This document shows positions 1 to 20,668 of a DNA stretch of 22,007 nt, in pieces (position 1 is the first letter of the stretch; each line of letters begins with the position of its first letter). This DNA is from a virus: the IMG/VR virus record IMGVR_UViG_3300044837_000084, positions 1 to 22,007 of that record; one strand, 5' to 3'. Both the position numbers and the translations under genes were made by a program. A model generated the notes under the pieces. That model searched no databases. It was not told where the DNA came from and saw nothing but the letters and a program-made list of their open reading frames with translations.

Positions 1-1
1 T

Positions 2-802
2 TGGCATATCGACGCGTCATTGCCGCTGGGGCAGATCGGGGAGTATTTCCGGACTACCGACGACTCCTTTCCCGGTACGCCGTATCTCATTCCCTGCCCG
101 GACCGCGTGAAGATGTGGAAAGCGCTCTTTTCACAGAAACGCAAGCCTGTGATCGGAGTGGCATGGACTGGTGGAATGCCGAGAACCAATGCACGTAATC
201 GGCGCATCGGGTTGGAAGACTGGCTTCCCATCTTTGGCATTGACGCGCATTTCGTGTCGCTGCAGTACAAAAATTCGAGCGAGGAGATTGACGCCTTTCG
301 CAAGAAGCATCGCATCGACCTGAAGCAGTACCCGTATGGCACGCTCACCAAAGACTATGACGATACCGCGGCCCTCATCGCCTCTTTGGATTATGTGGTG
401 TGTGTCCAGACTGCGGTTGCGCACACGGCGGGGGCTCTCGGCATTCCCGTAACCGTGCTGGTTCCCGAGGCAACTCAGTGGCGCTACGGCAAGTCGCAAG
501 ATTCGATCCCCTGGTACGAATCGTTACGGGTGGTGAGGCAGCAGAAGACCGGATCATGGAGTCAGGAAATTGAACGCACAGCTACAGAACTTGGAACGTA
601 TTTCTCCCGCGTACCGGGCGGAACAGGAGCGGCTCCACGCAACGACCGTCTACGGAACAGCATCCGTGGTCTATGCGCCGGTGGTGTCCGCAATCATCAA
701 CCGCATGGCGATTACGCACGTCCTGGACTACGGATGCGGGGCGATGTGCAACCTCGCCAAGAACCTGAAAGCGGACCACAAGCTGCAATACCAAGCCTAT
801 GA
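2..802 (+). CDS. GT9/heptosyltransferase-like protein, 5' end missing
   Basis: The frame is open at the window edge, so the N-terminus lies outside. The visible part has the C-terminal Rossmann features of GT9-type (heptosyltransferase-like) proteins: a GVAWTGG strand and loop, then a stretch ending in VCVQTAVAHTAGALG and VTVLVP, which is the nucleotide-sugar binding half. This is followed by W-R-Y-G and PWYESLRVVRQ, typical of TPR-linked GT9 homologues in phages and bacteria. A closing helix (SWSQEIERTATEL) fits the family end. The frame then runs about 65 more residues inside the following methyltransferase gene, and that tail has no family character. The gene is first in a four-gene sugar/methyl cassette just upstream of head-tail genes, so modification of host surface glycan or of a virion glycan is plausible. 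The acceptor cannot be read from sequence. Confidence 0.75.
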   Translation, partial: WHIDASLPLGQIGEYFRTTDDSFPGTPYLIPCPDRVKMWKALFSQKRKPVIGVAWTGGMPRTNARNRRIGLEDWLPIFGIDAHFVSLQYKNSSEEIDAFRKKHRIDLKQYPYGTLTKDYDDTAALIASLDYVVCVQTAVAHTAGALGIPVTVLVPEATQWRYGKSQDSIPWYESLRVVRQQKTGSWSQEIERTATELGTYFSRVPGGTGAAPRNDRLRNSIRGLCAGGVRNHQPHGDYARPGLRMRGDVQPRQEPESGPQAAIPSL

Positions 803-1145
803 CCCCGGTGTGCCTCGCTTCTCCAAAGATCCGGTTCCAGCACAGATGGTGGCGTGCATTGACGTTCTGGAACACATCGAGCCCGAGTACTTGGATACCG
901 TCCTCGATCACCTGCGATCTCTCGCCGAAGGTGTCGTTTTCCTCTCGATTGACACGGGGCCTGCACAAAAGGTCTTAAGTGACGGCAGGAATGCCCACTT
1001 GATCCAACAGCCCATGTCCTGGTGGCTGCCTAAGATTTTCGAGCGCTGGGAGGTGCAGACGGTGCAGCTCGCGAGTGAGAGTGGGTTTTTCGTGGTGGGA
1101 ACGGCCATGGTTCGCTTGGAGGCGAAAGACGGCACCTTGCTGTGA
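570..1145 (+). CDS. Class I SAM-dependent methyltransferase
   Basis: A 191-residue protein with a TTG start, preceded by GGAG eight bases upstream. Motif I (VLDYGCG, residues 51-57) binds SAM. An acidic residue follows in AYDPG (76-80), and IDVLEH (97-102) matches motif IV of Rossmann methyltransferases. The N-terminal helix (LSPxYRxxxxxLHA-like, residues 10-24) is typical of phage methyltransferases of this kind and supports the upstream TTG over the later ATG at 705. The first 233 bases overlap the preceding GT9-like frame. The stop overlaps the next gene as GTGA, so translation is probably coupled. Small-molecule or sugar O-methylation is more likely than DNA methylation, because no target-recognition domain or DPPY-type motif is seen. 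The substrate is unknown. Confidence 0.8.
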   Translation: MNAQLQNLERISPAYRAEQERLHATTVYGTASVVYAPVVSAIINRMAITHVLDYGCGAMCNLAKNLKADHKLQYQAYDPGVPRFSKDPVPAQMVACIDVLEHIEPEYLDTVLDHLRSLAEGVVFLSIDTGPAQKVLSDGRNAHLIQQPMSWWLPKIFERWEVQTVQLASESGFFVVGTAMVRLEAKDGTLL

Positions 1146-1813
1146 TCGCCTCCTTCCTGCTCGTGGGTGAGCAGGACTACGCGGCAACGATGGTGCGGTC
1201 CTTAAAAGACGTCCACCACTGCCCGGTCATTCAAATGTCGGACTTGAAGACGCCTGCGGTTCCGGGCGTTGATGAAGTGGTGCGCATCCCATTCAAAGTG
1301 CCCTTGATGCTGTATCGGTTCAAGCATCTGGCGGCCTATCCGCATGACGACATGCTGATCGTCGATACCGACGTGATTGCGAAACACCCGATCGATGACG
1401 TGTGGGCACACCGCTTCGATGTGGGTTTGACCCATCGGGAGCCGGGCGAACTGTATGACGGGGATGGTGATGACCTCTCATCCGCCATGCCATTTAACAC
1501 GGGCGTGATGTTCTCGCGCTCCACGCAGTTTTGGGCTGACTGTTACACCTGGCTTACCCATCAGAGCGAAGCGAAACAGCGCTGGTACGGCGATCAACTT
1601 GCGGTTGCTCACATGGTGGAGCGCGGGACGTACGCCGTCCTAGGGCTTCCCTGTCGCGTTTTCAATTGGGCACCCACCAGTGCCGCGGATACCTCGGACG
1701 CTCGGTTCTTTCACTACAAGGGCGCGATCAGAAAGAAATGGATCAACCACGCATCTACATCGGTTTTGACCAGCGGGAGGCCGTCGCTTATCACGCCTGC
1801 TGTCAATCCATAA
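1142..1813 (+). CDS. GT8-like glycosyltransferase
   Basis: A 223-residue protein with a GTG start that overlaps the methyltransferase stop. The DTD triad at residues 75-77 (after MLIV) is the expected metal and nucleotide-sugar binding motif of GT-A fold enzymes. FNTGVMF (118-124) and WYGDQ (148-152) correspond to the FNTGV and D-Q elements of GT8 and related transferases. HYKG (191-194) is a typical C-terminal donor-phosphate contact. No signal peptide or membrane segment is seen, so it should act in the cytoplasm. The last 25 residues overlap the following gene in another frame. It sits beside a second, different glycosyltransferase, so the two probably add successive sugars. Donor and acceptor are unknown. 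Confidence 0.75.
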   Translation: MIASFLLVGEQDYAATMVRSLKDVHHCPVIQMSDLKTPAVPGVDEVVRIPFKVPLMLYRFKHLAAYPHDDMLIVDTDVIAKHPIDDVWAHRFDVGLTHREPGELYDGDGDDLSSAMPFNTGVMFSRSTQFWADCYTWLTHQSEAKQRWYGDQLAVAHMVERGTYAVLGLPCRVFNWAPTSAADTSDARFFHYKGAIRKKWINHASTSVLTSGRPSLITPAVNP

Positions 1814-2475
1814 TCGAGAAGGCCAGCGTGCCGGTGAGCTTTCACCCGCTGAGCCTGAACATGCTGAAAGGTTTTGACGGCCAGCGCGACGGCACCAACG
1901 CTTTTACGCTCTCGCGCTTTCTCGTGCCGTCACTGTGTGACTTTCAAGGTTGGGCGCTCTTTATCGATGGCGATATGGCGGTCGACATCGATATTGCGGA
2001 ACTGTGGGCCTGGCGCATTGCATTGCATGACAAGGCGGTGGGAGTGGTCAAGCATGACTACACCACCAAGCACCCGCGCAAGTACGTCGGCACGCCGATG
2101 GAAACCACGAACTTGGACTATCCGAAAAAGAATCAATCGAGCGTGATGCTGTGGAACTGCGCGCATCCGATGAATCGAGTGCTCACGCGCGAGTTCGTGG
2201 CGAATGCGACACCCGCCTCTCTGCATCGTTTCGAGTGGCTCGGCAAAAAGGAAATCGGCGGCTTGTCGGCGGGCTGGAATTATTTGGTCAACGAGGAGGC
2301 GCCATCGAGTGCGCATATCTACCACTACACCTTGGGTGTTCCCGGCATGAAGCATTACGCCCAGGACCACGGCTCGTGGAAGTGGCACACCTCATTACTT
2401 CGAATGCTCGAATGCGCGAAAGAAGACCCGGTAGAGATGGTCAAGCGATCACAAGACACGGTGGGTAGTCCATGA
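1738..2475 (+). CDS. Second GT8-like glycosyltransferase
   Basis: A 245-residue protein starting at an ATG inside the end of the preceding gene (76-bp overlap). The start is chosen because the family-typical N-terminus (IYIGFDQREAVAYH, residues 6-19) begins right after it; an in-frame extension upstream is only a shadow of the previous gene. LFIDGDM (74-80) carries the D-x-D metal motif of GT-A enzymes. Further conserved-looking segments are NQSSVMLWNC and the C-terminal HYTLGVPG. Such proteins are often encoded beside tail genes in phages, where they are annotated simply as glycosyltransferases. The stop overlaps the adaptor gene as ATGA, tying the cassette into the structural operon. The role is inferred to be glycan modification; the acceptor is unknown. 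Confidence 0.75.
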   Translation: MDQPRIYIGFDQREAVAYHACCQSIIEKASVPVSFHPLSLNMLKGFDGQRDGTNAFTLSRFLVPSLCDFQGWALFIDGDMAVDIDIAELWAWRIALHDKAVGVVKHDYTTKHPRKYVGTPMETTNLDYPKKNQSSVMLWNCAHPMNRVLTREFVANATPASLHRFEWLGKKEIGGLSAGWNYLVNEEAPSSAHIYHYTLGVPGMKHYAQDHGSWKWHTSLLRMLECAKEDPVEMVKRSQDTVGSP

Positions 2476-3089
2476 TTTTCAATTCCTACGCGGACTTTCG
2501 CAACAAGGTCCAATCGCTGTTGGATGGCGATGACATCTCGCAATCGGATCTGTCCGTCTCGGTTCTGGACACCATCATTGGTGCCGGTGAAGTGAGAATC
2601 TACCGGGACATTCGCTCGAGTACTCAGGATGCGGCCCTCTCAATCACGGCAACCAACAACTCAGCGCCCTTGCCGGCCGATTATTTGGAACTGAAAGGTT
2701 CGCCCTACACGGCTAAGTTCAAGACAGCGAAGTACGAGCCGTGGGAAGTGGTGCAGAACTACATCCAGACCGGTTGCACGCTTTCAGGTCAGGTCACCTT
2801 CTACACCTTCGAAGGCGACAACATGATCTTCTATCCGCCGCAGACCGGGACCATCACCGGCCGGTATTACAAGCGCTTTGCGGATATTTCGACGGGATTG
2901 AATGCGCTCTTTACCCGCCATCCCGATTTGTTCATCTATGCCGCATTGAGCGAGAGCGCACCGTTCTTAGGTGAGGAGACCCGCTTACCCGTGTGGGAGA
3001 GCAAGTATTCGCAGCTCGCGCAATCAGCCAATGAGCAAGAACGCCGCAGAGTAACGCGCGGCTCGAAACTGGCGACGCGGGTAGCCTAA
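2472..3089 (+). CDS. Head-tail adaptor protein (SU10/P22 gp4-like)
   Basis: A 205-residue protein starting at an ATG that overlaps the previous stop. The N-terminus (NSYADFRNKVQSLLD) followed by a helix (DTIIGAGEVRIYRDIR), PLPADYLELK, a beta-rich centre and YYKRF matches the adaptor family of podoviruses related to phage SU10, the functional equivalent of P22 gp4. These proteins form the ring under the portal that closes the head after packaging and supports the tail hub. The C-terminal helix (ESKYSQLAQSANEQERRRV) is also typical. It lies directly before the gp10-like gene, as expected. The portal, scaffold and coat genes would lie to the left of the window. Confidence 0.8.
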   Translation: MIFNSYADFRNKVQSLLDGDDISQSDLSVSVLDTIIGAGEVRIYRDIRSSTQDAALSITATNNSAPLPADYLELKGSPYTAKFKTAKYEPWEVVQNYIQTGCTLSGQVTFYTFEGDNMIFYPPQTGTITGRYYKRFADISTGLNALFTRHPDLFIYAALSESAPFLGEETRLPVWESKYSQLAQSANEQERRRVTRGSKLATRVA

Positions 3090-3090
3090 G

Positions 3091-4491
3091 TTGAAACTTC
3101 CCTTCCTCGGCCAAGCGTATGCATCGCGCTCGCCGATCCTTGCCTCGCAAACCCTCGTCAATCTGTATGCGGAGGGGACGGAGGGTAATTCAGGGGATAT
3201 GGGGGCGTTTTATGGCACGCCGGGACTTACCTCGCTGGTGGCGGCCTCGGGCGCGGTGCGTGGCCTTCGGGTGGCCGGCGGCAAGCTCTATGCGGCCATT
3301 GGCAACGCAGCGTATCGCATCGATTCGAGTTACAGCGCGGTCAATTTAGGGGCGTTGCCCTACGATACGTCGCCCGTCGCGATCATCGACAACGGCTCAC
3401 AGGTGGCTTTCGCCCATTCCCAAGGCTGGCATTGGGTGTCTTATAGCGGAACCACCATCAAGCCGGTAGTGAACTCTCCCGTTGGCTCCATCCTCACGGA
3501 GATGGACAACTACGTGATCTTTACCACCTCGACCTTGGGGCAGTTTGGGATTACAGCACTCGCAGATTTGAGCACGATCGACCCGCTCGACATTGCATCC
3601 GCCGAAGGCGCACCCGATAACCTGGTGAGCGTCATCGCCGACCATCGGGAGGTGTGGCTATTCGGTGAGAACACCATCGAGATTTGGTCCGATACCGGCG
3701 CGCAGTTCTTTCCCTTCGAGCGCTCTCCTGGTGGGTTCATTGAACAAGGCTGTGTTGCCAAATGGTCGCCGGCCAAACTCGACAACTCAGTGTTCTGGAT
3801 CGGACGGGATCGAAACGGGCAGGGCGTCGTATATCGCGCAAATGCGTATATCCCGCAGCGCATCTCCACGCATGCGATCGAATTTGCGATCAACAATTAC
3901 GGCGATATCTCGGACGCCATTGGATTTAGCTACCAGGAGGAAGGGCACAGCTTTTACTGGCTCACGTTCCCTTCTGCGGATGCTTCCTGGGTGTACGACG
4001 TCGCAACCAATGGCTGGCATCAACGGTCCTGGCTCGATAGCACGACTGGGCTTTCGCATCGTCACAGAGCGAACTGCTACGCCTTCTTCAACAAGTCCCA
4101 CATCGTGGGTGATTGGGAGAACGGCAATATCTACCGCATGGGTCTCGATGTCGGCAATGACAACGGCGCGGTGATTTATCGCGAGCGGGCCTTTGAAGTG
4201 CCGGAATCGGAGAACAAGCGCGTTCGCATGGATTACTTGGAGCTGATGGCAACAGTGGGTGATAGCGCAACACCCACCTCGCAAATCTGGATGCAGATCT
4301 CGAAGGATGGCGGGAGAACTTGGGGCTACAAGCGCTTTCAGACCATGGGCGATATCGGTGAGACCTATGTGCGCTCGCGCTGGCGGCACATGGGCATGGG
4401 ACGCAACATCGTCATCCGCTTCGGCACCACCATGAGTTCGCGGGTGCATTGGATGAATGCGTACGGACGGGGTGAGGCATTGGGTATATGA
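3091..4491 (+). CDS. Packaged DNA stabilisation protein, P22 gp10-like tail hub
   Basis: A 466-residue protein, close to the size of P22 gp10 (about 470). It begins at a TTG one base after the adaptor stop. The N-terminal MKLPFLGQAY-type segment, QTLVNLYAE, the GTPGL motif near residue 48 and the repeated WxF/ExxTIEIWSDTG strands near residue 200 are typical of this family (Phage_stabilise, from memory). Gp10 hexamers plug the portal-adaptor channel and carry the tailspikes. No closer start with a better ribosome site is visible. The stop overlaps the tailspike start as ATGA, so hub and spike are probably made in step. The order adaptor, hub, spike agrees with a P22-like tail machine. Confidence 0.85.
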   Translation: MKLPFLGQAYASRSPILASQTLVNLYAEGTEGNSGDMGAFYGTPGLTSLVAASGAVRGLRVAGGKLYAAIGNAAYRIDSSYSAVNLGALPYDTSPVAIIDNGSQVAFAHSQGWHWVSYSGTTIKPVVNSPVGSILTEMDNYVIFTTSTLGQFGITALADLSTIDPLDIASAEGAPDNLVSVIADHREVWLFGENTIEIWSDTGAQFFPFERSPGGFIEQGCVAKWSPAKLDNSVFWIGRDRNGQGVVYRANAYIPQRISTHAIEFAINNYGDISDAIGFSYQEEGHSFYWLTFPSADASWVYDVATNGWHQRSWLDSTTGLSHRHRANCYAFFNKSHIVGDWENGNIYRMGLDVGNDNGAVIYRERAFEVPESENKRVRMDYLELMATVGDSATPTSQIWMQISKDGGRTWGYKRFQTMGDIGETYVRSRWRHMGMGRNIVIRFGTTMSSRVHWMNAYGRGEALGI

Positions 4492-6113
4492 CCGTTCCGC
4501 TCGTCATCCCGCGCTATGAAATCGATGTCATCGACAAGAATGGCAAGATGGATCGCAACTGGTACAAGTACCTTGCGCTGCTCGGAAAGTCTGCCGGTGC
4601 TTCCCCCACCTTCAGCGATGACATTCAGATTCGGGACATTTTGGGCGCGCTGACGCCGCCGCCGACTCAGCAGCAATTGGGGCAGACGTTCTATCCGCAG
4701 ACCGATGCAGAACGCACGGCCGGAGTGGGACCGGTGAACTATGCGTATCCGCCGGGGAATGTGCTGCGGTACGGGGCAGATCCAACTGGGGTCCGCGATT
4801 CGACAGCGACTATTCTGGTTGCATTTAATGTCGCTCTTGCTTCCGGAGATGGTCCATATTTCCCGGCCGGCACTTATTCCGCCGATACGCTGCAACTTCC
4901 GTTGCTTTCATACAGCAATCCTTTTTGGATCAACGGCGCGGGCTACGGGGTCACGAAGATACAGAAGCGCTCAGCGGATGGCCTTCCGCTATTCATTACC
5001 GGCAGCGCATCTGCCACAGCTTTTTCCACAGAACTGCGCGTTTATGGATTGACGTTCAGCGGTATCGCAGGCAACACGCCGGCCGCAGTTCAGTCTTATG
5101 ATTTGGTGCGTTCTGTATTTGATGGCTGCATCTTTCAGAACAGCATTGCCGGCATGGTCAGCAGCGGCGGTATCTCGAATACCTATCAGGACTGCATATT
5201 CCAGAACAACCAGATCGGGGCAAAGTTTGTGAGCTTTACCTCCTTAGCCGGTGGCGGCTATCCGAACAACATCGAGTTGCAAAACTGCGGGGTATTCGGA
5301 AATACGTTGCAGGGTGTTTATTTCAATGGCGGTCGTAACCTGAACATCGATGCCTGTGATATCGAGGGCAATGGTACATCAGGCAATAGCGCAACGATGG
5401 GCGTCTACGTTGCCAATGTGAACGCCGAGAGTGGCGGTGCTGCTCCCGCTATCGGCGTATCCATCTTTGACTGTTGGATAGAAGCGAATGCGGGAGATGC
5501 CGCCCTACAATTCAACAATGGAGTCAATACCGTCCGTTCGTCGTACTTGGCCGCCAATGCGAATGCCACCAATGACATTCATATCATTGGTGGCAACTAT
5601 CACTTATCTGAATTGGCTTTTGGGACGAATAAGACAGCCAACATCTTAGAGGATGCTGGGGTCAATGCTGGCAACTCGATTGTCAACTGCTTTGATGCAT
5701 TGGTCGGAAGTTTCACCTTTAATGTTGCAAAGACGATGGTGGTCGGCGCGTGGAACGATGGAACGGGAACGCTCACCGATACGATATTGATGCGCTCCGG
5801 ATCTGTGCCGGTCGTGCAGACGGGAGGAGTGTCAATGAACACCCCGCTCATTCAAACTGGCTCTACGACAACGTCGACCGGTGGCTCTATTGCGGTGACG
5901 TTCCCCACTGCTTATCCATTGGGGGTTACGCCAGTTATTCTCCCAACGGTGATCGATGCTCCTTCGATCACCCGATTGATCGGCGTGCAGATCAGCAACG
6001 TTTCCAACACCGGATTTACGGCCAGTTGCAACTCTCTTCTATCAGGCTCTACCACTGTCGCCGGATTGGTAGGCGAGACAATTACTTGGATATCCATCGG
6101 GTCGACAACATAA
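4488..6113 (+). CDS. Tailspike/tail fibre 1, beta-helix with gp53-like C-terminal domain
   Basis: A 541-residue protein. Residues 1-80 are a probable virion-attachment part. A hinge motif, YPPGNVLRYGADPTG (about 86-100), is followed by D-S-T, the usual entry into the right-handed parallel beta-helix of phage tailspikes. The middle (about 100-430) is rich in N, G, S and T with regularly spaced short strands, as in pectate-lyase folds. The last 85 residues (SIAVTFPTAYPLGVTPVI to ETITWISIG) resemble the gp53-like trimer tip domain of tail fibres. It should bind and perhaps cut host polysaccharide (capsule or O-antigen). Catalytic residues cannot be assigned by eye. A second spike is encoded at 11364-13577, so host recognition probably uses two receptors or two enzymes. 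Confidence 0.8.
   Translation: MTVPLVIPRYEIDVIDKNGKMDRNWYKYLALLGKSAGASPTFSDDIQIRDILGALTPPPTQQQLGQTFYPQTDAERTAGVGPVNYAYPPGNVLRYGADPTGVRDSTATILVAFNVALASGDGPYFPAGTYSADTLQLPLLSYSNPFWINGAGYGVTKIQKRSADGLPLFITGSASATAFSTELRVYGLTFSGIAGNTPAAVQSYDLVRSVFDGCIFQNSIAGMVSSGGISNTYQDCIFQNNQIGAKFVSFTSLAGGGYPNNIELQNCGVFGNTLQGVYFNGGRNLNIDACDIEGNGTSGNSATMGVYVANVNAESGGAAPAIGVSIFDCWIEANAGDAALQFNNGVNTVRSSYLAANANATNDIHIIGGNYHLSELAFGTNKTANILEDAGVNAGNSIVNCFDALVGSFTFNVAKTMVVGAWNDGTGTLTDTILMRSGSVPVVQTGGVSMNTPLIQTGSTTTSTGGSIAVTFPTAYPLGVTPVILPTVIDAPSITRLIGVQISNVSNTGFTASCNSLLSGSTTVAGLVGETITWISIGSTT
5564..5595. repeat. Perfect 12-bp inverted repeat inside tailspike 1
   Basis: TGCCACCAATGA at 5564-5575 is followed, after an 8-base loop, by its exact reverse complement at 5584-5595. 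It lies within the beta-helix coding part. There is no T-run after it, so it is not a standard terminator. It could form an mRNA hairpin or simply reflect the repeated Asn/Gly codons. Confidence 0.8.
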
Positions 6114-6449
6114 ATGACCATCGCCGCCGCCGTCTTCGCTCGCAACATCGTTCTGCCGACCGCGGTTGCCTCTCAGTACCTGCAACCCTCGGGAAGCGTC
6201 GGCATCATCACACACGCGGTCTTTGCGAATACCACGGGCGGTTCGATTTCGATCACGGCCTATGTCGTGCCATCGGGGAAAACTGTGGCTGATTCGGCAA
6301 AGCTCATCCCGTCCTTTGCAGTTCCGGCCCTGTCGAGTTACGTCTCGCCGGAACTTGCGGGCGTGGTGTTGGGAGCGGGCGATACCCTGCAATGCTTTTC
6401 GAGTAGTGCCGGGATCAGCTTGAGCGTGAGCGGGATCAAGCAGTCGTGA
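6114..6449 (+). CDS. Small beta-rich phage protein of unknown function
   Basis: A 111-residue protein whose ATG follows directly on the tailspike stop codon with no gap. It is rich in A, S, V and T and looks like a single beta-sandwich: alternating short hydrophobic strands, no charged clusters, no membrane segment and no signal peptide. VFANTTGGSISITAYVVPSGK is reminiscent of small virion-associated proteins found downstream of tail genes. It may be a spike chaperone, a tail accessory protein or a decoration protein; none of these can be decided from sequence. Its GTGA overlap with the acetyltransferase gene supports it as a real gene in the structural operon. Confidence 0.65.
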   Translation: MTIAAAVFARNIVLPTAVASQYLQPSGSVGIITHAVFANTTGGSISITAYVVPSGKTVADSAKLIPSFAVPALSSYVSPELAGVVLGAGDTLQCFSSSAGISLSVSGIKQS

Positions 6450-6925
6450 TCACCATAGAGAATGAGCCATTTAGCCCGGCCCTCTATGCTGAAATTCTAC
6501 CGCTGGCGCAAGCCTGTTGGAATGAAAGCACGATCGTCAAGAATAAGACGTGTGCTTACTACGGAGAGCGGGAATTTGCCGTTGAGCCTGATCTGGATCT
6601 CTACGAGCGGCTGGCAAGCGCGGGCTCAATGATTGTGTTGGCCTTACGCGAGGACGAGACACTCAAGGGCTATGTCGTCGGGTATACCTATCGTAGCCCG
6701 CATCATCAGAAGATTTTATGCGGGCACGGCGATTCGATTTATATCGAGCCTGCCTATCGATCCTATGCCGTCGTCATGGCGGAGAAGTTCGAGTCAGCCA
6801 TGAAGGCATTGAAAGTACAAGCCATCGGTTGGCCTACGCATATCGACGGGCCAATGTACGAAGTGCTCAAGAATCTCGGATACGTCGGTGACGATATTGT
6901 GATGGAGAAAAGATTATGTGTGTGA
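6446..6925 (+). CDS. GNAT-family acetyltransferase
   Basis: A 159-residue protein with a GTG start overlapping the previous stop. The length and layout fit a single GNAT domain: an N-terminal helix pair (YAEILPLAQACWNES), a central strand (MIVLALRED), a strand with a turn (LKGYVVGYT), the SIYIEPAYRSYAVVMAEKF segment (about residues 95-113), which corresponds to the acetyl-CoA loop and following helix, and a C-terminal NLGYVGDDIVMEKRL hairpin. The usual Q/RxxGxG/A loop is degenerate here (YRSYAV). The gene lies between tailspike and ejection genes, where podoviruses sometimes carry such an enzyme. It may modify a virion or host protein; the substrate is unknown. The next start lies 10 bases inside its end. 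Confidence 0.75.
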   Translation: MITIENEPFSPALYAEILPLAQACWNESTIVKNKTCAYYGEREFAVEPDLDLYERLASAGSMIVLALREDETLKGYVVGYTYRSPHHQKILCGHGDSIYIEPAYRSYAVVMAEKFESAMKALKVQAIGWPTHIDGPMYEVLKNLGYVGDDIVMEKRLCV

Positions 6926-16304: not shown

Positions 16305-17198
16305 TCACCGGACCGGTTTGATGCGCGAGCGGCGCACATAGACCCCCATCATTTGGGCGTTGTGACCGAGGATGTTATGGCTGGCATCGGTCGCCGCCTT
16401 GGGCCGCAGTTCCCGGAACCGGAACCCCGCGTTTAGGCGCTTCATGGCGCTCTGTAGGCCGTCCATGGTGTAGGGCCTACCCTTCTCGCCCACAAAGACA
16501 AACTCGTTCTGTGAGCGCGCCAGGGCCTGCTCAATGAAGTATTTGAGGGGCGTGCTCCATTCGATCTCCCGCAACTTGCCATCCTTCGACTGCGTAACCT
16601 GAATCCCGGTGGACGTGATGGCTTCCCGGGTCAGCAACCGCAGATCCCCTTGCCGCAATCCCGTCAGATAGGCCACCGCCAGCAAATCCCGCAACGGGAC
16701 CGGCGCGCGGTTCAGCACGTCGACCAGCTCCTGATTCTCGATATAGCGCTTCGATGGCCTTTCCTTGTTGCGCCGGACGCCCAAGCAGGGATTCGACACG
16801 CACCAGCCAAACCGCATCCCCCAGCTAATCACCGATCCCAGCACGGCCCGCTCCCGATTCCCGCCGACGGCCGCCCCTTCGACTTTCCGCATTTCGAGGT
16901 ATTGGGCTACGTGCGTCGGCTCGAGCGCGTTCAGGATGACGTGGCCGAAATGGTGCTGTAGGCGCGCATTGATGATTCGCAGGTATTCGGGCTGGGTCGC
17001 TGGCTTCAATTCTGGTAAAGCCCGGGCGATGTACAGCATCATCAATTGTCCGTAGGTCGCCGGCCGGTCTGTGGTCCATTCTTGAAGGGCGGTATAGAGC
17101 GCGGTTGCGCCTTCGTCGACCCGGGAGAGTGGGTGCCATTTGTTTTGATGGACGTAGAAGTACCGGCCGTGTCTTTGGTGGACTTTTGGGGGCAGCAT
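16305..17198 (-). CDS. Tyrosine integrase Int1, adjacent to attP, atypical box II
   Basis: A 297-residue tyrosine recombinase. The N-terminal LPPKVHQRHGRYFYVHQNKWHPL is an arm-binding type beta segment. A helical core-binding domain follows (about 48-140), then the catalytic domain with R182 (TGLRQGD), lysine in QSKDGK (205/208), R265, H279 (LGH) and Y287 (GVYVRR). The box II histidine of the usual H-x-L-R motif is replaced by arginine (RELR, 262-265), and only 14 residues separate R265 from H279, against about 19-22 in most relatives, so a helix is shortened. An arginine at this place may occur in some phage relatives, but I cannot verify that here. The ATG has no clear ribosome site, so coupling to the overlapping DUF4224-like gene is likely. 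Its 3' end points at the att core 47 bases away. Confidence 0.88.
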   Translation of the reverse strand: MLPPKVHQRHGRYFYVHQNKWHPLSRVDEGATALYTALQEWTTDRPATYGQLMMLYIARALPELKPATQPEYLRIINARLQHHFGHVILNALEPTHVAQYLEMRKVEGAAVGGNRERAVLGSVISWGMRFGWCVSNPCLGVRRNKERPSKRYIENQELVDVLNRAPVPLRDLLAVAYLTGLRQGDLRLLTREAITSTGIQVTQSKDGKLREIEWSTPLKYFIEQALARSQNEFVFVGEKGRPYTMDGLQSAMKRLNAGFRFRELRPKAATDASHNILGHNAQMMGVYVRRSRIKPVR

Positions 17199-19822: not shown

Positions 19823-20668
19823 TCATCGCAGCGGCTGCACAACGCGACGGGCGCGATCGTAGACACGCCGAGTCATCTTGATATCGATGTGACCGGCGAG
19901 CAGGTAGGCGGAATCAAGGCTCAGGTTGTCTGAGATGCTCTTGGCGCGGATATCGTGAAAATGCCAACGTTCGTTACCTGCGTCTTCCCATGCGCGCATC
20001 GAGCGCTGCCACATCGCTCTAAAACCATCCTCCGAGTACCGCAAGCCCTTCGCCCCGTACTTAGGATTCGTGCGTATCACGTATTCTCTCGGCCAATGCG
20101 GCAACATCAGCTTGGCGCGCTTCAGGACGGTCTCTACGGCCGGCGAGATCATGATCGCCAGCTTCTTTCCCGTCTTGCCTTGGTCGATCTCAATGTGCCA
20201 TTTGTCGCGCGGCAGTCCAATCGCCCGAACCTGCTTCCAGGTCAGCCCCACGATGTCTCCCTGCCGCTGTCCCGTGAGGAGCGCGAGGTCCATCGCAATC
20301 TGTACCTGGGCACAGCAGGTAGCCCGGAATGCGTCGAACTCTTCAGTGGTGACGTAACGGTCTCTCGGCTTCGTAGGCCAGCGCTCAACGCCTGTGCATG
20401 GGTTCCGCAGGTCATCCTGGATGCACCAGCGCCCGATGGCTTTCTTGAACACGGTCGAAAGGATCGTGACCATGCGGTTTCGATGAATGCGGCCGGTCTT
20501 AACCTCGAGGAAATCCACCACCATGCGCGGCGTGACTTGGCTCGGTTCAAGATGGCCGAAAGTTTGGCGAAGTAGGACTAGGATGCCCAAATAGTCGCGC
20601 TGACTGCGCGGCTGTAAATCAGGAATGCACTCGGCAGCGTACCGATCAAACAAGTCGTTCATGCTCAT
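19823..20668 (-). CDS. Tyrosine recombinase Int2, full catalytic set
   Basis: A 281-residue tyrosine recombinase starting at ATG 20668 (or 20662). A helical core-binding domain (about 3-95) begins at once, so the usual N-terminal arm-binding domain is missing. The catalytic domain carries R135 (TGQRQGD), K165 (QGKTGKK), H238 and R241 (FHDIR), H260 (AGH) and Y270 (RRVYDR), all in place. Box II to H260 spacing is 19 residues, as in active enzymes. It is clearly different in sequence from Int1. It lies in mid-operon, about 3.6 kb from the only recognisable att core. Possible roles: the real integrase, a second recombinase for another site, or a relic of an inserted element. No start extends the protein upstream; a stop closes the frame about 110 bases before the ATG. 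Confidence 0.88.
   Translation of the reverse strand: MSMNDLFDRYAAECIPDLQPRSQRDYLGILVLLRQTFGHLEPSQVTPRMVVDFLEVKTGRIHRNRMVTILSTVFKKAIGRWCIQDDLRNPCTGVERWPTKPRDRYVTTEEFDAFRATCCAQVQIAMDLALLTGQRQGDIVGLTWKQVRAIGLPRDKWHIEIDQGKTGKKLAIMISPAVETVLKRAKLMLPHWPREYVIRTNPKYGAKGLRYSEDGFRAMWQRSMRAWEDAGNERWHFHDIRAKSISDNLSLDSAYLLAGHIDIKMTRRVYDRARRVVQPLR

Follow-up and report, generated by a model that had tools for sequence, protein, structure and literature searches.

The window, that is the whole stretch analysed here, is an entire virus record of 22,007 bases that is classed as linear and whose left end cuts into the first gene. Its list of open reading frames holds six plus-strand genes in 2-4491, each pair overlapping or lying 1 nt apart:

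2..802, + strand: C-terminal half of a predicted TPR-GT9 glycosyltransferase, truncated where the record begins; conserved portion to about 605, the remainder being an out-of-frame tail over MT
570..1145, + strand: SAM-dependent methyltransferase (MT); TTG start, family conservation from about residue 12
1142..1813, + strand: predicted GT8-type glycosyltransferase a (GT8a); DxD at residues 75-77, missing in relative L002, present in L109 and L015
1738..2475, + strand: predicted GT8-type glycosyltransferase b (GT8b); PF01501, phrog_28018
2472..3089, + strand: SU10-type head-tail adaptor, the cassette's right border; PF24175 E=3e-21
3091..4491, + strand: head closure protein Hc3 / stabilisation protein, the next gene of the virion operon; phrog_578 E=2.8e-104

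The preliminary description had seen a GT9-like enzyme, a SAM methyltransferase and two GT8-like enzymes embedded among head-tail genes, and the open reading frames, the Pfam and PHROG matches, the predicted fold of GT8a and the conserved gene order all bear this out; the set lies directly before the adaptor and head-closure genes. Its further statement that this enzyme set is coupled to the adaptor by overlaps held for gene content and order and needed correction for the GT9-like gene, which covers no more than the C-terminal half of TPR-GT9. As the order is conserved in dozens of contigs, a chance origin of the arrangement is excluded. GT8b probably starts at the ATG at 1738 rather than at 1666.

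An insertion of glycosyltransferase and methyltransferase genes between capsid and connector genes is present in relatives, of which the window itself shows the right border only. Searching with MT, the top-ranked relative was a 42.3 kb contig (L002), 83% identical to the window in MT, 83% in the GT9 part, 72% in GT8b and 85% in the adaptor. Its gene order is portal, scaffold, SU10-type MCP (PF17236, E=7.8e-67), Ig/Hoc-like protein, TPR-GT9, MT, GT8b, adaptor and head closure, GT8a being absent from the cassette. Two further contigs (L109 and L015) carry MT, GT8a and GT8b as in the window, L015 with one extra gene between them.

The truncated TPR-GT9 gene

In the window, the GT9-like open reading frame matched PF01075 at E=0.0048, under the curated cut-off, and phrog_36377 at E=1.5e-15. 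In L002 the corresponding gene encodes 511 aa, with TPR repeats at the N-terminus ahead of a GT9-like catalytic domain; the TPR half of the window's own gene falls outside the record, and the repeats were seen in L002. In a profile search the TPR families of the L002 protein exceeded the cut-off, and its AF2 model (28 sequences; pLDDT 87.9, pTM 0.83) showed a helical repeat domain at the N-terminus and, at the C-terminus, a domain made up of two alpha/beta halves (GT-B). Sixteen columns are invariant across 29 aligned TPR-GT9 proteins. Foldseek placed SPINDLY and OGT on top (E 7e-11 to 1e-9), with low TM-scores (0.2-0.4) and whole-chain rmsd values of 10-22 A because the domains superpose badly as a whole. 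With VIA, OGT was matched at Z ~18-19 (rmsd ~15 A), and the C-terminal domain alone matched the GT9 chains 3tov (Z 18.2, 3.3 A, 261 aligned) and 1psw (Z 17.3, 3.6 A, 255 aligned). The TPR part is not diagnostic, since TPR proteins of other functions score similar Z values. As modelled, the architecture of the first gene is OGT/SPINDLY-like, with TPR repeats and a GT-B fold whose catalytic domain is GT9-like: in common with these enzymes it has a TPR superhelix ahead of a GT-B domain, whereas its catalytic domain agrees more closely with GT9 chains (3.3-3.6 A) than the whole chain does with OGT or SPINDLY.

Bacterial homologues of TPR-GT9 were inspected in 74 loci. Eight of these contained a flagellin gene, called by a pattern that we take to be typical of flagellins, with nine such genes at 53-3418 nt from TPR-GT9. 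The chance of finding at least nine flagellin genes was P 4e-6 to 0.01 for densities of 1-3 genes per Mb, which were assumed and are not a measured control. The flagellin-linked homologues matched the phage profile at E 1e-102 to 1e-97. One bacterial locus has the order GT8b, TPR-GT9, MT, flagellin, and in 8 of the 74 loci MT lies within 500 nt of GT8b. According to the accessible text of PMC7591256, the TPR domain of FlmG, the flagellin O-glycosyltransferase of Caulobacter crescentus, binds flagellins, and both of its domains are required for modification. The likeness to the phage protein is one of architecture, an N-terminal TPR and a C-terminal GT-B domain being joined in one soluble protein (PMC7591256, accessible text), and it extends to the bacterial members of the phage TPR-GT9 family, which adjoin flagellin genes; the phage gene, in contrast, adjoins a capsid gene.

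Methyltransferase and GT8-type enzymes

MT matched PF13489 at E=8.5e-5, under the curated cut-off, and the methyltransferase family phrog_24759 at E=1e-22. The GT9-like open reading frame extends 233 nt into it. Past the first 45 nt of this overlap, protein identity among the window, L002 and L095 was 0.50-0.56 in the GT tail versus 0.77-0.81 in the MT frame, and the differences concentrated at MT third positions. In the AF2 model of L002 the counterpart of the tail was disordered, with pLDDT below 50 from residue 461 onwards. A programmed frameshift or a true overlapping gene was rejected as the default reading on these grounds, the MT frame being conserved and the GT tail not; the tail looks tolerated rather than functional and is seemingly unconstrained beyond its first codons.

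GT8a found no family match in Pfam, PHROG or NCBIfam and, as a lone query against viral_contigs, zero relatives; its relatives turned up inside TPR-GT9 loci. All seven homologues retained a DxD pair as well as the stretch HxKG..RK.W, as judged by eye against what we presume to be the GT8 signature. The AF2 model built on these seven homologues (pLDDT 89) matched glycogenin in Foldseek, and the top VIA row was PBCV-1 A64R (2p6w; Z 16.4, rmsd 2.7 A, 176 aligned), with glycogenin tied. On the strength of this model GT8a is of GT8 type, with a predicted GT-A fold and DxD metal site. The PDB title of the A64R structure links that virus glycosyltransferase to capsid glycosylation. In A64R, which comes from a chlorella virus, glycosyltransferase and methyltransferase domains are joined in one protein, whose own activity is unconfirmed in the accessible part of a review (PMC4691112). 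Its GT-A fold is nearest to GT8a and its glycosyltransferase is likewise joined with a methyltransferase; it differs in being a single fused protein of a eukaryotic large DNA virus. GT8b matched PF01501 at E=6.4e-4, under the curated cut-off, and phrog_28018 at E=4.9e-26. Its homologue in MW202512 is the only one to clear the GT8 cut-off (36.6 versus 24.3 bits). All 92 distinct viral proteins in the alignment carry DxD; by sequence, GT8b is a predicted GT8-type enzyme with a DxD metal site.

Place and retention of the cassette in one capsid clade

A profile of the 29 TPR-GT9 proteins was used to collect the best 80 of 573 viral relatives, i.e. the nearest ones, which single-linkage clustering resolved into 66 groups at 90% identity and 51 at 70%. 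Among these best 80 of 573, TPR-GT9 was preceded by an MCP gene on its own strand in 68, and the remaining 12 had under 630 nt of upstream contig. The adaptor lay downstream in 66 of the same 80; of the 14 loci without it, 4 are on contigs that stop directly at TPR-GT9 and 6 on contigs that run no more than 2 kb past it, and L110, L132, L156 and L170 extend 2.8-5.1 kb downstream of TPR-GT9 with no adaptor recognised. The stretch from TPR-GT9 to the adaptor (66 loci) was filled by MT-GT8 in 33 cases, GT8-MT in 8, MT alone in 3 and nothing in 2. The adaptor as a lone query returned 3 loci.

As this first set had been selected by the enzyme itself, a second set of 80 loci was picked by MCP. In 56 of them both MCP and adaptor were visible, and 35 of the 56 carried TPR-GT9: 12 with MT and GT8, 11 with MT, 6 with GT8 and 6 with neither recognised. 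No cassette gene was recognised in the other 21, one of which (L320) has an unassigned ORF of 473 aa in the gap, and MT or GT8 without TPR-GT9 occurred in 0 of the 56. The median MCP-adaptor gap was 3006 nt with TPR-GT9 versus 1169 nt without. That MT and GT8 appear here only together with TPR-GT9 agrees with an initiating enzyme whose follow-up steps are optional. In a quick tree built from 104 MCPs, pooled from all searches with the variable loop excluded, TPR-GT9 showed one state change (82 with, 22 without; SH-aLRT 98), and among carriers MT showed 5 and GT8 showed 6, so that TPR-GT9 appears stable in one capsid clade whereas the others come and go. Of 12 unlabelled slot genes tried in carriers, seven had enzyme-family matches, two to GT9, two to radical SAM/SPASM and three to methyltransferases; the other five gave one sub-threshold GT4 match and four without match. 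In these seven cases the slots are filled by other glycosyltransferases, methyltransferases or radical SAM enzymes; in our reading the GT8s and methyltransferases are exchangeable. A Ser/Thr-rich loop of the capsid protein, longer in carriers and with more of these residues, was considered as acceptor (medians of 20 Ser/Thr over 61 residues where the full set is present and 11 over 45.5 without); the enrichment represents a single independent contrast in the tree, and the loop was kept as a lead only.

Outside this capsid clade, MT and GT8 homologues occur without TPR-GT9: Roseobacter phage CRP-9 has MT between coat and adaptor-like genes and no TPR-GT9, and many of the more distant loci in the MT search sit at places other than the capsid-adaptor slot. 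Among 50,697 'phages' records, only the metagenome-derived MW202512 covers most of TPR-GT9; there the cassette order is kept, with MCP followed by two small genes, TPR-GT, an endonuclease, MT, GT8, the adaptor and the stabilisation protein. A search for a lysogen or cultured host turned up a related MCP in twelve genomes (1 of 369 in one class, 11 of 385 in another), with no tractable host among them. Loci were fetched from 11 of the 12, G587 being left out for a broken match; TPR-GT9, MT or GT8 was found in 0 of these 11 and the adaptor in 9. The lineage is known almost only from metagenomes.

Insertion of glycosyltransferases and methyltransferases at this slot is already known from the cluster J mycobacteriophages; a literature search, with most subscription papers outside it, gave no recognised description of TPR-GT9 beside a phage capsid gene. 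The accessible text of PMC3706429 describes 8-10 genes in cluster J, including several glycosyltransferases and methyltransferases, between the MCP and head-tail connector genes. The likeness, drawn from that description, lies in several glycosyltransferases and SAM methyltransferases of variable content in the capsid-connector slot; the difference is that these are mycobacterial siphoviruses, for which the same text mentions no TPR-GT9 anchor (PMC3706429). Mycobacteriophages such as Che8 are reported to have glycosylated virions, with phage-encoded glycosyltransferases and glycans on capsid and tail proteins (PMC12619734 and PMC11256854, accessible text, from Freeman 2023). Glycosylation is experimentally proved in that other lineage, and the glycosyltransferase genes of Maravista lie near the 3' end, as far as the available text of PMC11256854 tells, unlike the capsid-side place here.

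Proposed acceptor of the glycan and alternative targets

We consider it probable (roughly 0.7) that the window holds the right-hand portion of a cassette for glycosylating virion proteins, placed between MCP and adaptor and led by a TPR-GT9 enzyme that is FlmG/OGT-like. This reading is based on gene content, fixed position, the way MT and GT8 nest on TPR-GT9, the retention of TPR-GT9 throughout the clade, predicted folds and flagellin-linked bacterial homologues; it is better supported than it was from the window alone, because TPR repeats lie in the missing left part and the first gene keeps to a single capsid lineage. The TPR superhelix would hold a virion protein while the GT-B domain attaches the first sugar in the cytoplasm; GT8a and GT8b would lengthen the glycan, and the methyltransferase would cap or modify it. 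These steps would precede or accompany head assembly, and their order (TPR-GT9, then the GT8s and MT) is the one we infer. The acceptor would be a virion protein, the capsid protein or an adjoining small head protein being our first guess, and the glycan may serve in shielding, altered adsorption or stability.

The place in the operon shows co-expression and does not show the target. An earlier proposal that the cassette acts in the lytic phase from a late operon agrees with its position inside the virion operon in many phages. Expression from a promoter of its own in lysogens, with host LPS as the sole target, had been named as the finding that would speak against this. Scans for sigma-70-type promoter-like sites found 0 on the plus strand of window 1-4600 (shuffles gave a mean of 2.5) and 6 in L002 4000-14000, all on the opposite strand; absence of promoters alone is weak evidence for late-operon expression.

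The same soluble enzymes could instead modify a host protein or surface glycan late in infection (flagellin, pilin or LPS), leading to superinfection exclusion or to progeny freed from receptors. This would agree with FlmG, the nearest well-studied relative, acting on flagellin (PMC7591256, accessible text), with the several bacterial TPR-GT9 homologues that adjoin flagellin genes and with the presence of LPS heptosyltransferase II among the GT9 chains in the PDB. We nevertheless regard it as unlikely, as the cassette is locked to a capsid-side place and to one capsid clade, neither of which a host-directed set would need, and the TPR repeats suggest a protein acceptor. Glycosylation of phage DNA bases is very improbable, and the TPR domain and the place among virion genes fit it poorly. 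A thymidylate-synthase-family (PF00303) enzyme would make hydroxymethylated bases; it was found in 0 of 15 carrier records, which speaks against the hydroxymethylated-base route only. In its favour, some viruses are known to encode DNA-modifying glycosyltransferases (cited in the accessible text of PMC12619734).

The hydropathy of the cassette proteins bears on the last alternative. The highest 19-residue mean was 1.00-1.63 for the window's four proteins and the L002 TPR-GT9, the top value falling in a predicted Rossmann region; in the viral set, 51 of 124 GT9-labelled ORFs had a stretch above 1.6, which was taken for Rossmann strands. The cassette proteins of the window and L002 look soluble. 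Gtr-type seroconversion cassettes comprise a membrane glycosyltransferase and a flippase. Neither was found among the cassette ORFs, and with no promoter-like site on the plus strand in the regions scanned, classical seroconversion, in which the cassette would alter host LPS in lysogens, is highly improbable even if two integrase-like window genes (one a weak XerC match, the other named by eye) suggest that the phage may be temperate. The earlier preference for virion glycosylation or late surface modification over lysogenic seroconversion was supported, seroconversion being the least likely.

Returning to virion glycosylation, we tentatively propose, at somewhat less than even odds, that an uncultured phage clade domesticated a flagellin-type bacterial module (TPR-GT9, MT, GT8) and re-aimed it at the capsid, with TPR-GT9 as the core and the outer-sugar enzymes swapped freely, giving a variable glycan coat on a conserved head. 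To our knowledge, phage virion glycosylation has been demonstrated in few lineages. In the present clade, one enzyme with a predicted acceptor-binding domain belongs to the fixed gene set of a widespread capsid lineage, and the genes beside it vary in the way expected of a glycan-diversifying set. If the reading is true, the clade would offer a natural series (no cassette, TPR-GT9 alone, with MT added, with GT8 added) to probe the role of sugars on phage particles, and a phage relative of OGT and FlmG in which to study how TPR enzymes choose their proteins.

Genes following the major capsid gene

L002, a 42.3-kb contig closely related to the window, carries one gene between those for the major capsid protein (MCP) and TPR-GT9 (TPR repeats with a GT9-like glycosyltransferase), and in two further loci large ORFs lie immediately 3' of the MCP gene:

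L002 7728-8189: Ig-like, Hoc-like head decoration protein
L320 8959-10377: large ORF
L294 8883-11937: large ORFs

The L002 decoration protein is a possible acceptor for glycosylation; a profile search of the first locus set matched it to no second locus. A small phrog_3982 protein (108-122 aa) followed the MCP in six of seven tried, and its gene is found between MCP and TPR-GT9 in L248, L104, L132, L162, L168 and L264. A family search with the L320 ORF returned no recognised family, and the large ORFs of L320 and L294 perhaps represent a different cassette occupying the identical site.

Additional cassette genes and relatives elsewhere

Two loci encode a radical SAM/SPASM enzyme within the cassette:

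L140 5565-6647
L252 11775-12713

HNH-type endonuclease genes, perhaps homing endonucleases that mobilise the cassette, are located in or next to it in L013, L034, L155 and the metagenome-derived phage record MW202512 (L089). TPR-GT9 genes form long tandem arrays in betaproteobacterial loci including L175, L176, L177 and L186, where they are interspersed with genes for the GT8-type glycosyltransferase GT8b and the SAM methyltransferase MT. In jumbo Caulobacter phages, a GT8b-MT pair (gp136-gp137 in CcrPW, L092) was observed a few genes downstream of a tail protein gene.

Integrase-like and acetyltransferase genes of the window

The window, a single record, holds two integrase-like genes, the second of which gave zero matches in an NCBIfam search, and an acetyltransferase gene:

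16305-17198, minus strand: integrase-like, weak XerC match
19823-20668, minus strand: integrase-like
6446-6925: GNAT-like acetyltransferase, phrog_1249 match

The acetyltransferase gene lies 3' of the tail genes and recurs at a roughly equal position in L002, L003, L005, L095 and L247; its product may be another enzyme acting on a virion protein or sugar.
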